A stretch of 64,000 nt of DNA. It comes from Phycisphaerales bacterium (GTDB lineage Bacteria > Planctomycetota > Phycisphaerae > Phycisphaerales > UBA1924). The notes below the pieces were generated by a model. That model worked only from the letters and a program-made list of their open reading frames with translations. It did no database searches and was not told the origin of the DNA. Of this stretch, positions 24,940-30,667 are shown one piece after another. Within the stretch, counting starts at the first letter, position 1. Each line of letters starts with the position of its first letter. The stretch lies in contig JASBRY010000008.1 of NCBI GenBank assembly GCA_030149165.1, positions 310,001-374,000 on the forward strand, written 5' to 3'. Both the position numbers and the translations under genes were made by a program.

Positions 24940-25030
24940 CGCCGTGGATGACACAGACCCGACCCGGTGAAAGCTGGGAACGGAGATTGGATCGAGAACC
25001 CCCCCACAGTCGGTCGTGAGGGGTGCTCAG

Positions 25031-25059
25031 GACAGGATGTCGACCGGTATGGATACCGG
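25031..25059 (+). promoter_or_regulatory. Tandem GGA-loop hairpins in the fliW leader (candidate CsrA sites)
   Basis: GACA-GGA-TGTC (25031-25041) forms a 4-bp stem with GGA in the loop. Two bases later CCGGT-ATGGAT-ACCGG (25044-25059) forms a 5-bp stem with an ANGGAN hexaloop. Both fit the known CsrA/RsmE target form. The second ends 44 bases before the fliW ATG. Confidence 0.55.
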
Positions 25060-25103
25060 CGTCGATCCGACAAGGCAGACCGACAAAATCGGAGCGCACA
25101 ACA

Positions 25104-25553
25104 ATGGAAGTGCGAACGACAAGATTCGGTGTAATCGATATCGCGGAGGACCGCGTGATTACATTCCCAGAGGGTCTCCTCGGTTTCAGTGACAGGACCA
25201 GGTTCTGTCTCCTGCAACCAGGTGACGACGCATGTTTCTTCTGGCTTCAATGTCTGGACGACCCCAACCTCGCATTTGTGGTCACTGATCCGACATTCTT
25301 TGAGCAGGACTATTCCGTCCCCATCCGCCCAGAGCAGATGAGCGAGCTCAAACTCCAGAAACTCGAAGACGCACAGGTCTTTGTCATCGTCAACAAGATC
25401 GATGAACAACTTACCGGCAACTTCCAGGGACCGTTGATCATCAACACCCTCGATAAGGTCGGCGAGCAGATCGTGCTCTCAGACAAACGATGGACAACCC
25501 GTCACCCGCTCATGCGAGTCTCGGAACAATCGACACAAACAGCGTCGGCCTGA
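25104..25553 (+). CDS. fliW: Flagellar assembly factor FliW
   Basis: FliW binds flagellin in the cytoplasm and, when free, binds CsrA allosterically and relieves CsrA repression of flagellin translation. The 149-residue length is typical. Landmarks are the N-terminal strand TTRFGVIDI, ITFPEGLLGF (about residues 19-28), the FFWLQCLDDPNLAFVVTDP segment and GPLIINTLDKVGEQ. The ATG at 25104 has GGAG nine bases upstream. It precedes csrA by 169 bases, the common fliW-csrA order. Its own leader carries two hairpins with GGA loops, which suggests that CsrA also controls fliW. Confidence 0.94.
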   Translation: MEVRTTRFGVIDIAEDRVITFPEGLLGFSDRTRFCLLQPGDDACFFWLQCLDDPNLAFVVTDPTFFEQDYSVPIRPEQMSELKLQKLEDAQVFVIVNKIDEQLTGNFQGPLIINTLDKVGEQIVLSDKRWTTRHPLMRVSEQSTQTASA

Positions 25554-25606
25554 TACCAGACCAACGCTCGGGGCATCCATCACACACAAACACGCACACA
25601 AGGTGC

Positions 25607-25631
25607 GGTGTGATTGGTACGCCAATACACC
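25607..25631 (+). promoter_or_regulatory. Hairpin between fliW and csrA
   Basis: GGTGT-(G)-ATTGG-TACG-CCAAT-ACACC forms a ten-pair stem with one bulged G and a four-base loop. There is no T run after it, so it is not a classical terminator. It could be a processing or stability element in a fliW-csrA transcript. Confidence 0.35.
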
Positions 25632-25722
25632 CTTGGATCATCCGTTCTGATCCCAGGACCATAAGAGACTCTTCCGTCTGGTCAAATAAACCAGCGCGGA
25701 TTCGTGTGCAAGGAGTTGACGC

Positions 25723-26106
25723 ATGCTTGTGCTCTCAAGGCAGCGCGACGAGACAATCATGATCGGGGACGAGATCGAAATCTCAGTCGTCGATATCCGA
25801 GGCGACAAGGTCCGTCTCGGTATCAACGCCCCGACCAGGATCGCGGTTCACCGCAAAGAAGTCTACGACGCGATCAAGAGAGAAAATACCGACGCCGCAA
25901 GGCTCGGATCCACCGACCTCGACACGCTCGCCCAGACCATCAAACCAGGACCAGCGCGACGCGGTCATCGGACAACAGATCTCATGACAACATCCGCAGC
26001 CGTAACGCTGCCAGCAACCAAGGTCAGCCCCCCTGCGGGACTCACCAATACAAAGACCACCGTTTCAAGTTCCGCAAAGGCTTCATCAACCAAGGACACC
26101 GCCTAA
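25723..26106 (+). CDS. csrA: Carbon storage regulator CsrA with C-terminal extension
   Basis: CsrA is a dimeric RNA-binding protein that blocks translation by binding ANGGA motifs in hairpin loops. Residues 1-56 are a full CsrA domain: [20 protein letters not shown], then [22 protein letters not shown], with Leu4 and Arg44 type RNA-contact residues kept. The product has 127 residues against about 61-75 in most bacteria; the extra 60-70 residues are rich in Thr, Ser, Ala and Lys and look disordered. AAGGAG lies seven bases before the ATG. It sits between fliW and two flagellin genes, whose leaders carry matching target hairpins. Confidence 0.94.
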
Positions 26107-26110
26107 CCCC

Positions 26111-26122
26111 CGCTCCTGAGCG
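26111..26122 (+). other. Small hairpin after csrA
   Basis: CGCTC-CT-GAGCG lies five bases after the csrA stop and is followed by TTTCTC. It may be a weak terminator or pause site separating csrA from the first flagellin. The stem is short and the T run is broken. Confidence 0.3.
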
Positions 26123-26145
26123 TTTCTCACTTAGGTAAGCAACAA

Positions 26146-26163
26146 GCAATCACGGAGGATTGC
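26146..26163 (+). promoter_or_regulatory. Shine-Dalgarno-sequestering hairpin of flagellin 1 (candidate CsrA site)
   Basis: GCAATC (26146-26151) pairs perfectly with GATTGC (26158-26163) and leaves the hexaloop ACGGAG, which matches the ANGGAN target of CsrA. The Shine-Dalgarno GGAGG spans the loop and the stem, and the ATG follows two bases after the stem. Confidence 0.65.
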
Positions 26164-26164
26164 C

Positions 26165-27721
26165 ATGACACGGATTAATACGAATGTCCCCAGTATGATC
26201 GCTCGCCAGCGTCTCAACCGATCAGGCGCCGATCTGCAGATCCGCCTCGAACGACTCTCAACAGGACTGAGAATCAATCGAGGCAAAGACGACCCCGCGG
26301 GTCTCATCATCTCAGAACGCATCGATACCGAACTCAAAGGCATCGAGCAAGCGATCTCCAACTCTCAGCGCGCCAGCTCGGTCATCGCGACCACCGAAGG
26401 TTCACTGACTGAAATTAACGACTTGCTCAACTCGATCAAAGCACTCACGGTCGAAGCCGCGAACTCCGGAGCAATCTCCGACGAGGAACGCGACGCGAAT
26501 CAGCTCCAGATCGACTCAGCAATTCAGTCCATCACGCGAATCGCGAACACCGCAACCTTTGGTGGCCAGAAACTGCTCGATGGATCCCTCGGATATGTCA
26601 CCTCTGGTATCGCAGTATCCACAATCACTAAATCCAATATCACCGCCGCGAGCTTTATCGACGCCAACGCGATTAATGTCTCCGTGGATGTCATCGCTTC
26701 GGCGCAGAAGGGGAACATCTATCTCTCAGGTGATAACTCAGCGTTCCCTGGACCACCAGCCGACGGCACGATCGCATCGGCAACCACCATCCAAGTGCGT
26801 GGTCCGAAGGGTGTTCGAGAGCTCGAAATCCTCTCTGGAACAGCGCTGTCCGCAGTCGCCGCGAGCGTCAATGCGTTGACCGGACTCACTGGGGTCACCG
26901 CGAGCTTGGTCTCAGGTGCCAACCAATCTTCAGGTCTCGTGTTCCAGTCCTCGGAATACGGCTCCAAGAACTTCGTGTCTGTGGAACGACTCAACAAGCC
27001 AACCACTGGAGCGGATTCATTCCGGACTTTCAAACTCGAAGGCAACCCCAATGTCCCAACCGATGTTTGGGCCGATGCATCACTCGTTTCCGCAACACGA
27101 GACGAAGGACGCGATGTCTCCGCGCTCATCAACGGCAATGTCGCCAATGGCGATGGACTGACCGTATCGATTGGCTCACCTTCACTCGCACTGAAGCTTG
27201 ATCTCGCAGAGTCGTACGCTGTCGATCCAACACTCGCCGTGACGACATTCGATATCACCGGTGGCGGATCGCTCTACCAACTCGGACCGAGTGTCAACGC
27301 ATTGCAGCAGTCCAATATTGGTATCCAGTCCATTGCATCGGAAGCGATCGGAGGTGTGCTCAAGAACGGCACCGTCAACTTCCTCTCGTCGCTCCAGACT
27401 GGGAAAGCCAACTCGCTCGCGGCCGCGGATGCAAGCCGAGATTATTCAACACTCTCTGATATCGTGGACAGCGCGATCGACGAGATCTCCATCCTGCGTG
27501 GACGCTTGGGTGCGTTCGAGCGCAATGTGCTCGATGCAAACTCACGATCCTTGCAGGGTGCATTCGAGAATCTCACCGCATCGCAGAGTTTGATCCGTGA
27601 TGCTGACTTTGCCGCAGAGTCCTCAGAACTCACGCGTGCACAGATCCTCCAATCCTCTGGTACCACAGTGCTCTCACTCGCGAACCAGCAATCCCAGCAG
27701 GTCCTCCAGCTGCTCGGATAA
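26165..27721 (+). CDS. Flagellin (first copy)
   Basis: This is a filament subunit of 518 residues. Residues 1-150 match the flagellin N-domain (MTRINTNVPSMIARQRL, then RLSTGLRINRGKDDPAGL), which forms the D0/D1 core and binds the export gate and FliW. The last 90 residues match the C-domain, with GRLGAFERNVLDANSRSL and a final LSLANQQSQQVLQLLG helix. The centre contains an IN-type motif (LSAVAASVNALTGLTGVTAS). Identity to the second flagellin is visible at both ends but the centres differ. No promoter is apparent in the 58 bases after csrA, so it may be read from csrA. A strong terminator follows. Confidence 0.95.
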   Translation: MTRINTNVPSMIARQRLNRSGADLQIRLERLSTGLRINRGKDDPAGLIISERIDTELKGIEQAISNSQRASSVIATTEGSLTEINDLLNSIKALTVEAANSGAISDEERDANQLQIDSAIQSITRIANTATFGGQKLLDGSLGYVTSGIAVSTITKSNITAASFIDANAINVSVDVIASAQKGNIYLSGDNSAFPGPPADGTIASATTIQVRGPKGVRELEILSGTALSAVAASVNALTGLTGVTASLVSGANQSSGLVFQSSEYGSKNFVSVERLNKPTTGADSFRTFKLEGNPNVPTDVWADASLVSATRDEGRDVSALINGNVANGDGLTVSIGSPSLALKLDLAESYAVDPTLAVTTFDITGGGSLYQLGPSVNALQQSNIGIQSIASEAIGGVLKNGTVNFLSSLQTGKANSLAAADASRDYSTLSDIVDSAIDEISILRGRLGAFERNVLDANSRSLQGAFENLTASQSLIRDADFAAESSELTRAQILQSSGTTVLSLANQQSQQVLQLLG

Positions 27722-27770
27722 GAGTTCGATCGAAGAAGCGACATCCATATATAAAGACACAACACGACCC

Positions 27771-27797
27771 AACCCCCTCAAACAGAGGGGGTTTTTT
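27771..27797 (+). terminator. Rho-independent terminator after flagellin 1
   Basis: AACCCCCTC and GAGGGGGTT form a nine-pair stem with the loop AAACA, followed at once by a run of T (27792-27797). Confidence 0.93.
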
Positions 27798-27921
27798 CAT
27801 AGGAAAACTACCTACGAATCTGCACTCTGTGTCCGGATAACTACTGAGTGACCAAAAAAATCTATCCGAACTGAGGAGAGCACTGAATCCGTGTCCATTG
27901 TGCGCCGATCCGTGATCCGTC

Positions 27922-28060
27922 ATCCAGGTGTGTACCTGGATTGAAGGTCAGCATTGCGATGCACATCGCAAGCCGCCGAGCCGAGCAACGACGCGAGGCA
28001 AGGCACACGGACGGCTAAGGAAAGTCGCCCGATCAATGGACTCCGGAAGTTTGTCCGGAG
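27922..28060 (+). promoter_or_regulatory. Highly structured 5' leader of flagellin 2
   Basis: The 361-base gap between the flagellin genes holds the first gene's terminator and then at least three further strong hairpins: ATCCAGGT-GTGT-ACCTGGAT (27922-27941), TTGCGATG-CA-CATCGCAA (27954-27971) and CTCCGGA-AGTTTG-TCCGGAG (28041-28060). Between the last two, GCCGCC (27972-27977) can pair with GGACGGC near 28008-28014. The arrangement suggests a long structured leader, perhaps a riboswitch or stability element. I could not match it to a known class. No clear promoter was found at 27798-27921. Confidence 0.55.
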
Positions 28061-28077
28061 ATAACACGGAGGTTGTC
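28060..28077 (+). promoter_or_regulatory. Shine-Dalgarno-sequestering hairpin of flagellin 2 (candidate CsrA site)
   Basis: GATAAC (28060-28065) pairs with GTTGTC (28072-28077), using one G-U pair, and leaves the hexaloop ACGGAG, identical to that of flagellin 1 although the stem bases differ. GGAGG (28068-28072) is the Shine-Dalgarno; the ATG follows at 28083. Confidence 0.62.
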
Positions 28078-28082
28078 AGCCA

Positions 28083-29588
28083 ATGACACGCATCAACACC
28101 AACGTTTCGTCACTGATCGCACAGAATGTGCTCGGTCGCAACAACAAATCACTCGGCGTCGCGCTCGAACGCCTTTCCACTGGTCTCCGGATCAATCGTG
28201 GTAAGGACGATCCAGCGGGTCTGATCGCTTCGGAAACTCTGCGTTCCGAAAAAGCAGGCCTCAACGCAGCAATCGGCAACGCCGAACGCTCAGAGCAAGT
28301 CGTCAACATCGCTGAAGGCGGTCTCCAGGAAGTCTCGAACCTCCTGACCGAACTCCAGGGACTCATCACCACATCCGCAAACGACGCAGGCCTCTCGGTC
28401 GAAGAAAAGGAAGCAAACCAGCTCCAGATCGATTCGATCCTTCAGACCATCGACCGCGTTTCCGGTGCTACTGAGTTCCAGGGAACCAAGCTCCTCAACG
28501 GAAACTATGACTACCAGACCAACTCCGTCGCAGCAGGCGTCACTGACTTCGAAGTCCGTGGTGCGAAGCTCGAAAGCGGAAACACTCTTTCCGTCGACGC
28601 AATCGTCACCCTGTCCGCACAGCAAGCAGGTCTGTACATGTCCTTCGGTGGTGCACTCGATCTGACCGCAGCGTCTGATCAGTTCGTCTTCGAGGTCGCC
28701 GGTGCGAAGGGCTCGCGTGAGTTCCAGTTCAGCTCAGGTGCTTCGATCGCTGACATCACCGCAGCAATCAACACCTTCTCCGATGTCACCGGCGTCACCG
28801 CTTCGGCAGGCGCAACTGGTGTCAAGCTTAAGTCAGAAGAGTTCGGCTCAAACGAGTTCGTCTCGATCACCGTTGTCGATTCGGGCAACATCGCAGCAGG
28901 CGACGGCATCCATGTCCTCTCCTCAACTGATTACGATGTTATCCGCACCGCATCGCCAACCGCGTTCACCGCGGCAACCAACGGCGTCCGTGACGAAGGT
29001 CAGGACATCACCGGTACTATCAACGGCCTCGTCGCTGTTGGTCAGGGCCGTACCCTCTCAGTCAACTCCGACTTCCTCGATGTCGAGTTCACACTCAACA
29101 CCGCGACCTCCCAAGCTCTGGGTTCAGTCGCAGCGTTCGACATCACCGGCGGCGGTGCAGACTTCCAGCTCGCGTCCGATGTCAACATCGCAGGCAAGGT
29201 CTCCCTCGGTATCGGCGACCTCTCCGCTCGTAAGCTCGGTAGCTCCGGCACCGGCTTCCTCGACGACCTCGCTTCAGGCAAGTCCTTCAATGTTGTCGAC
29301 GGCAACAACCTGGACACCGCTCAGAGCATCGTCTCCGAAGCAATCAACCAGGTCTCCTCGACCCGTGGTCGCCTCGGTGCGTTCCAGAAGAATGTTGTCG
29401 GTGCAACCCAGCGTTCGCTCGGTACCGCACTCGAGAACATCACCGCCGCAGAGTCCGTCATCCGTGACGCAGACTTCGCAGCAGAAACCGCGGCTCTGAC
29501 CCGCAACCAGGTCCTTGTTCAGGCATCCACCAACGTCCTGTCGCTGGCAAACCAGTCACCACAGAACGTGCTCGCGCTGCTCGGCTAA
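28083..29588 (+). CDS. Flagellin (second copy, probably the major filament protein)
   Basis: This 501-residue filament subunit has the N-domain MTRINTNVSSLIAQNVLGRN with RLSTGLRINRGKDDPAGL and the C-domain GRLGAFQKNVVGATQRSLGTALENITAAE ending in NVLALLG (shown here only in part). A central IN-type motif (SIADITAAINTFSDVTGV) is present. Codon choice is distinctly biased compared with the neighbours, with many CGT, GGT, AAC, AAG and GCA codons, as expected for a very highly expressed protein; this, the long leader and its own terminator suggest it is the major flagellin (inference). Translation is probably held back by the hairpin over its Shine-Dalgarno until FliW titrates CsrA. Confidence 0.95.
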   Translation: MTRINTNVSSLIAQNVLGRNNKSLGVALERLSTGLRINRGKDDPAGLIASETLRSEKAGLNAAIGNAERSEQVVNIAEGGLQEVSNLLTELQGLITTSANDAGLSVEEKEANQLQIDSILQTIDRVSGATEFQGTKLLNGNYDYQTNSVAAGVTDFEVRGAKLESGNTLSVDAIVTLSAQQAGLYMSFGGALDLTAASDQFVFEVAGAKGSREFQFSSGASIADITAAINTFSDVTGVTASAGATGVKLKSEEFGSNEFVSITVVDSGNIAAGDGIHVLSSTDYDVIRTASPTAFTAATNGVRDEGQDITGTINGLVAVGQGRTLSVNSDFLDVEFTLNTATSQALGSVAAFDITGGGADFQLASDVNIAGKVSLGIGDLSARKLGSSGTGFLDDLASGKSFNVVDGNNLDTAQSIVSEAINQVSSTRGRLGAFQKNVVGATQRSLGTALENITAAESVIRDADFAAETAALTRNQVLVQASTNVLSLANQSPQNVLALLG

Positions 29589-29635
29589 TCCCAAGCAGTC
29601 AACGGCTGATGCCACCCAAGAGCTGACCCTCGACG

Positions 29636-29663
29636 CCCCGGTCCTACCAGACCGGGGTGTTTT
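29636..29663 (+). terminator. Rho-independent terminator after flagellin 2
   Basis: CCCCGGTC and GACCGGGG form a perfect eight-pair stem with the loop CTACCA, followed by TGTTTTC. Confidence 0.85.
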
Positions 29664-29698
29664 CATGCGCCCGCTCCGCATCAACCGATGAAAACGCT

Positions 29699-30667
29699 GT
29701 GACGACCGCACAAAACAGCCGAGTTGAGCAGCTCTCTGAACCCAACCAGATCCTGCGCCGCCGCTTCATCAACTTCATCCGCATCGAATGCGGCTTGCTT
29801 CCCTCATCCATCGAAGCGTACTCCAGAGACCTCGAAACACTCCTGCTGGATCTCCAAGATCGAGGGATCGACGACGCGCACAATACACTCCCAGAGCACC
29901 TCATCGCGCACATCCGCTCGCTCACCAAAGATCGCGGATACGCCGGGACGACAATCTCGCGACACATCGCGACCATCAAAGTCTTATTCCGTTGGCTTTA
30001 CGCAAACGACAAGATCTCGGAGAACCCCGCGGATCACCTCGACCAACCCGCAAAGTGGAAGAAGCTCCCAGGAGTGCTCTCACCAAACCAAATGAAAAAA
30101 CTCCTCGTGGCTCCAACCCCACCAGAAAACCCAACCAACCAACCGCCACTTTACCTCCGCGACCGCGCGATCCTCGAACTCATGTACGCCTCAGGTTTAC
30201 GCGCAAGCGAAGTTGGAAACATCAACCTCGCGGACATCCTCGAACGCGTCGGCGTCGTGCGTGTGCTCGGAAAGGGCGACAAACAGCGCCTCGTCCCGAT
30301 GGGGACTCCCGCGATCAACGCGATGGATCAATACCTCAAAGAGTGCCGGCCGCTGCTGATCACCGCCGAGCGGGCCGCGGACAAAAGAGATCATGGGAAG
30401 CTGTTCCTGTCACGCACCGGAAGACCGATCGAACGCGTGCGCGTTTGGCAGATCGTGAAACACTGGTCCAAACAAGCGGGACTCAAAGACATCCATCCCC
30501 ACATGCTGCGACACTCATTCGCAACGCATCTACTCGCGGGCGGCGCCGATCTCCGCATCGTCCAGGAACTCCTCGGACACGCGGACATCACCACAACACA
30601 AATATACACACATGTCGATCGTTCACAGCTGCACACGACGATCAAGAAGCTGCATCCGAGAGGATGA
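29699..30667 (+). CDS. Tyrosine recombinase XerC/XerD
   Basis: This is a tyrosine recombinase of 322 residues, probably one of the pair that resolves chromosome dimers at dif with FtsK. The N-terminal SAM-like domain (about 20-105) is followed by the catalytic domain with Arg in YASGLRASEVG, Lys in RVLGKGDKQRLVPM, the HMLRHSFATHLL block, His in LLGHADITTTQIYTH, and the nucleophile Tyr there. The GTG at 29699 is chosen because the frame further upstream runs into the flagellin terminator; no Shine-Dalgarno is evident, so the start is uncertain. The sequence suits a housekeeping Xer better than a phage or integron enzyme, and no mobile element is near. Confidence 0.88.
   Translation: MTTAQNSRVEQLSEPNQILRRRFINFIRIECGLLPSSIEAYSRDLETLLLDLQDRGIDDAHNTLPEHLIAHIRSLTKDRGYAGTTISRHIATIKVLFRWLYANDKISENPADHLDQPAKWKKLPGVLSPNQMKKLLVAPTPPENPTNQPPLYLRDRAILELMYASGLRASEVGNINLADILERVGVVRVLGKGDKQRLVPMGTPAINAMDQYLKECRPLLITAERAADKRDHGKLFLSRTGRPIERVRVWQIVKHWSKQAGLKDIHPHMLRHSFATHLLAGGADLRIVQELLGHADITTTQIYTHVDRSQLHTTIKKLHPRG

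Follow-up and report, generated by a model that had tools for sequence, protein, structure and literature searches.

Do the two flagellin genes of this Phycisphaerales bacterium carry, on their Shine-Dalgarno (SD) sequences, binding sites for the CsrA protein encoded directly upstream, and would FliW relieve this control? We analysed a window of 64,000 nucleotides, part of contig C6 of the 2.84-Mb host genome, and compared it with relatives that include metagenome-assembled Phycisphaerales bacteria. The features of the window listed below with coordinates lie on the forward strand.

The fliW-csrA-flagellin locus

The genes in this region were found in the order flgN, flgK, flgL, fliW, csrA, fla1 and fla2, where flgL is a 682-aa ORF located 5' of fliW and is named from its flagellin-domain matches and its position. 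Pfam matches place fliW (25104-25553; E 1.7e-35) and csrA (25723-26106; E 2.3e-23) just upstream of the flagellins, as had been proposed. A homologue of the CsrA antagonist therefore adjoins csrA, which is the arrangement expected of a FliW-CsrA-flagellin switch. FliW also aligns to its counterpart in 5DMB, a solved complex of FliW with CsrA (E 6e-18), and 2AJ7 matches at an almost equal score. CsrA is 127 residues long with a long C-terminal extension. Among solved structures, the CsrA chain of 5DMB matches it best; the alignment spans residues 2-74, a stretch that includes part of the FliW-contacting C-terminal extension. R44, one of the single residues that we take to act in RNA binding, is present, and the protein thus has both its RNA-binding residues and the extension used by FliW. 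Both fla1 (26165-27721) and fla2 (28083-29588) encode flagellins with Pfam Flagellin_N and Flagellin_C domains. In positions 25000-30000, none of the curated Rfam covariance models matched, even with E values of up to 5 allowed.

CsrA-type sites on the Shine-Dalgarno sequences

The two predicted hairpins were found as described. At 26146-26163, GCAATC-ACGGAG-GATTGC forms six Watson-Crick pairs before fla1, and at 28060-28077, GATAAC-ACGGAG-GTTGTC forms five Watson-Crick pairs and one G-U pair before fla2. In both flagellins this places a GGA site of the CsrA type, an ANGGAN hexaloop hairpin (review PMC7652899), across the SD. The ten bases around the loops, UCACGGAGGA (26150-26159) and ACACGGAGGU (28064-28073), both fit the form (A/U)CANGGANG(U/A). 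This ten-nucleotide form is the optimum for RsmE, a CsrA homologue. Among 308 genes that have an SD and encode at least 150 aa, sampled from about 860 kb of the host genome, only fla1 and fla2 were observed to have this form over the SD, and an ANGGAN hexaloop hairpin of at least 4 bp was found on the SD of five (the flagellins and three others). Both flagellin ribosome-binding sites therefore probably carry a CsrA docking site, as judged from their sequence. The core aCACGGAGGt, with four flanking pairs, was also noticed before the ATG of a gene whose product begins like an SMC-type ATPase (L058, G000:C10:899689-899709); this match is possibly due to chance.

The two sites differ in their predicted folds. 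As isolated hairpins they have energies of -5.9 (fla1) and -3.9 kcal/mol (fla2). Folded within 45 to 120 nt of leader, the fla1 hairpin keeps a probability of at least 0.95 and its loop stays open. Within 75 to 150 nt of leader, the probability of the fla2 SD hairpin falls to about 0.01, because GUUGUCA is drawn into an alternative pairing with UGACA across the start codon. The competing hairpin, UGUCA-GCCAA-UGACA (28074-28088), forms part of the minimum-energy fold and is absent from relatives with ATGAGT starts. On the basis of folding and of the conservation described below, we rejected a fla2 SD hairpin equal to that of fla1. The original prediction that the hairpins mask the ribosome sites holds in that both sites overlie the SDs. 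However, GGAG is displayed in an open loop and is not buried, so that the hairpin alone does not fully mask the SD, and the masking would come from CsrA.

Leaders of fla1 and fla2

Only 58 nt separate csrA from fla1, no sigma-28-like promoter was found before fla1, and a terminator-like hairpin with a T run follows the gene (27773-27797). Taken together, these features suggest that fla1 probably belongs to the fliW-csrA transcript. No upstream ANGGAN hexaloop hairpin was found in the 110 nt before fla1, and a covariance model of a two-hairpin leader (R1) found no match in this genome. The GGA in the last csrA codons (CCAAGGACACC) was considered as an upstream fla1 site and rejected, as it has no stem and is lost in relatives.

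In fla2, a second CsrA-type site (BS1) was found at 28008-28031. It has the sequence CGGACGGCU-AAGGAA-AGUCGCCCG, with a perfect ANGGAN hexaloop at 28017-28022 closed by eight pairs and one mismatch, and it is predicted to form with pair probabilities of at least 0.93 and a fully open loop. This leader therefore has a second GGA hairpin 5' of the SD site, and the GGA of BS1 lies 49 nt from the GGA on the SD, where bridging by one CsrA dimer is described for sites 10 to 63 nt apart (review PMC7652899). The original prediction of a single site per gene, unlike hag, is thus correct for fla1 and fails for fla2, where the added hairpin is the better predicted of the two. A sigma-28-like promoter for fla2, TGAA-N16-GCCGATCC (27884-27911), is proposed from its resemblance to the consensus; transcripts from it would have a leader about 165 nt long. 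It is kept in L001-L007, with looser forms in some other relatives.

The low probability of the fla2 SD hairpin would be expected if fla1 were the sole regulated target and the fla2 leader mainly titrated CsrA or were loosely controlled, and there is a precedent in the C. jejuni flaA leader, which titrates CsrA (PMC4894983). We consider this unlikely, as conservation in the fla2 core, CANGGAGG, is 95-100% at every position apart from N and BS1 is maintained, with small stem changes, in the six near species L001-L006. In more distant members of the genus, an apical loop of another kind, GANGGAG, was noted by eye at a position further upstream.

Hairpins with a loop lacking GGA were also observed just 5' of both SD sites, and their sequence varies between species while the pairing is kept. 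Before fla1, the hairpin at 26115-26135 (-6.8 kcal/mol) has counterparts of similar form and different sequence in relatives, and the hairpin at 28041-28060 (loop AGTTTG), which lies between BS1 and the fla2 SD site, shows stem changes on both sides in near relatives. They perhaps serve for spacing or insulation.

Conservation and covariation

Throughout the order Phycisphaerales, the fla1 hairpin was found to be near-invariant. In 19 genomes of the genus, and also in the family, CAATCACGGAGGATTG before fla1 hardly varies, while the bases around it drift. The 16-mer CAATCANGGAGGATTG has 15 matches in 392 planctomycete genomes, and the 14 that were read (all except L031) lie just 5' of a flagellin ATG, one of them (L045) outside the class. 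The reversed pattern gave no match in the same genomes.

Because the fla1 stem is near-invariant within the order, it yields little covariation there by itself. We assembled 46 distinct SD sites from fla1-type leaders and distant FliW-positive planctomycetes, which were picked by the loop motif and not by pairing; a few distant sequences with ANGGAN outside the usual SD register were excluded. The SD helix of these sites scores 0.289 for covariation, and five of its six pairs have changed on both sides. Shuffled sites score 0.129 (0 of 500), and slid partners no more than 0.134. Re-dealing the 3' flanks among the sequences left the verdict unchanged in each of the three groups, fla1, fla2 and distant. 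Of 63 fla2 leaders, 13 have a hexaloop hairpin of at least 4 bp against 4.9 expected; the two closing pairs are supported individually, but the outer pairs are not. Beyond these two closing pairs, the fla2 helix is poorly conserved outside the genus, and only the core of the site is conserved across the order. The claim that the pairing is kept while the bases change, which had been drawn from two paralogues only, is therefore borne out by the leaders of relatives for the fla1 type together with the distant planctomycetes and does not extend to the outer pairs of fla2.

These results bear on whether the sites are simply the strong SDs of highly expressed flagellin genes with incidental pairing. 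GGAGG is a good SD and is overlapped by the 3' half of both stems, and the AAGGAGG of many relatives fits ANGGAN automatically. However, the 5' half CAATC is invariant though dispensable for ribosomes, CACGGAGG is kept despite being a poorer SD than AAGGAGG, the helix covaries, and ANGGAN hairpins also occur upstream, away from the SD; we regard this explanation as improbable. Control by the hairpins without CsrA, through SD sequestration or temperature sensing, would agree with the stable fla1 hairpin but is the least credible, as the SD lies in an open loop and not in a stem, and simple sequestration would not call for a loop fixed as a six-membered ANGGAN.

Flagellin leaders and FliW across the planctomycetes

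FliW was found in 139 of the 392 planctomycete genomes, and csrA adjoins it in most of the loci read. Among 44 leaders from distant FliW-positive genomes, an ANGGAN hexaloop hairpin was observed upstream in 23 (0.47 expected from shuffles) and on the SD in 19 (0.13 expected). In the canonical two-hairpin leaders the loop starts are 21-27 nt apart, with 38 nt in two leaders. Sixteen two-hairpin leaders show changes on both sides in eight of ten pairs and a covariation score of 0.591 against 0.161 for shuffled leaders; since this set was partly chosen for pairing, the counts against shuffled leaders are the less biased evidence.

The covariance model R1, built from the sixteen leaders, found matches in 31 of 352 genomes. 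We counted 28 of these as flagellin leaders, all in FliW-positive genomes and 13 outside the training set, although the flagellin start that follows the leader looks broken in one (G305). The FliW-negative genomes G079 and G205 have weak matches away from their flagellins, and no match was found at a flagellin in the 86 flagellated FliW-negative genomes (22 families). The association with FliW gives Fisher p-values of 2e-8 by genome and 2e-4 by family, or 5e-4 and 0.11 with a stricter flagellin cut-off, and these values are optimistic because the model was trained on FliW-positive genomes by choice and was run on 352 of the 392 genomes. In the last of the 31 genomes, the two-hairpin leader of the CsrA type precedes a gene that does not encode flagellin but lies close to the flagellin locus (L304, G297:C457:18987-19036); this is possibly another late flagellar gene.

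The SD hairpin is absent from the flagellin leaders of the FliW-negative family f32 and of G205, and at least five of these genomes still have csrA just 5' of their flagellin gene. The flagellin-leader motif is also absent from the FliW-positive f73 genomes and G386, so the link between motif and FliW is not strict, and the losses do not coincide exactly. This weakens the case for treating genomes that lost FliW as clean natural knock-outs. Three FliW-negative assemblies showed upstream hairpins in the scan. G104 (two leaders) and G132 are also without csrA, which makes missing contigs likely, and the hairpin of G252 lies about 105 nt upstream and was set aside as a probable chance match.

Two further arrangements of csrA were observed. 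The FliW-negative f32 genomes (G088, G109, G219 and others) have 5 to 17 CsrA-family matches each, with one csrA directly 5' of a flagellin in several. In the distant planctomycete loci L059 and L063, the csrA frame crosses the flagellin SD and extends past the flagellin ATG, which places a CsrA-type site inside csrA itself.

Proposed mechanism

The most likely mechanism, by analogy, is the known Hag-FliW-CsrA switch. We place the probability that both flagellin mRNAs are CsrA targets, antagonised by FliW in a hook-checkpoint switch, at roughly 0.85. The CsrA encoded 58 nt 5' of fla1 would target both mRNAs and occupy the ANGGAN site on each SD, which would block ribosome entry. FliW would remove CsrA, and cytoplasmic flagellin would in turn sequester FliW; export through the finished hook would free FliW, and flagellin synthesis would be off until then. 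As the last gene of the fliW-csrA cluster, fla1 would be controlled through one strong hairpin site on its SD, and fla2, with its own promoter, through the strong BS1 and the weakly structured SD site, whose spacing would suit bridging by one CsrA dimer. All of these steps, from the binding of CsrA and its repression of translation to its removal by FliW and the checkpoint at the hook, are inferred here from sequence. As probable CsrA sites lie on both ribosome-binding sites beside csrA and fliW, flagellin is very likely held back until the hook is ready. Gene content, motif, conservation, covariation and the association with FliW thus argue for the partner switch of the original prediction, without its single site in fla2. 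It is possible, though doubtful, that the two site designs differ for a reason. A single pool of free CsrA would then release the two mRNAs at different thresholds, which would set the order or ratio of the flagellins in the filament, and both designs would have split from an ancestral two-hairpin planctomycete leader.

FliW control of CsrA has been proposed for Planctomycetes from gene presence only (PMC4682653), and no study of planctomycete flagellin leaders was found in the open literature, outside which most subscription journals lie. The RNA half of the switch can now be located: in much of the phylum, flagellin leaders carry a CsrA-type site that is conserved and covaries, and its two-hairpin form has a near-constant loop spacing. 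The flagellar checkpoint thereby becomes testable in planctomycetes, for which no experimental study of it was found, and single-site and two-site leaders side by side in one genome are an informative twist on the known switch.

Comparison with known systems

The B. subtilis hag leader has two CsrA sites, one of them on the SD. The present locus resembles it in the adjacent fliW and csrA, the C-terminal extension of CsrA, the CsrA-type site on the flagellin SD and the upstream site of fla2. It differs in the single site of fla1, in having two flagellin genes with a flagellin directly after csrA, and in belonging to the phylum Planctomycetota, and the evidence here is that of sequence.

E. coli hfq is reported to have one CsrA site, which overlaps the SD and so resembles that of fla1 (Baker 2007, as cited in PMC7652899). 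The target there is not a flagellin, and E. coli is not known to have FliW.

In the 5'UTR of C. jejuni flaA, two ANGGA stem-loops are supported by compensatory changes, and the second of them covers the ribosome site; this layout is proven to bind CsrA (PMC4894983). The exact layout is found in the distant FliW-positive planctomycetes and roughly in fla2, whose two sites are separated by 49 nt and a spacer hairpin within that interval; fla1 is without the first stem-loop, and the fliW of C. jejuni is not beside csrA. The switch itself is therefore known from Bacillus and Campylobacter, and its planctomycete counterpart appears well supported by the leaders described here.
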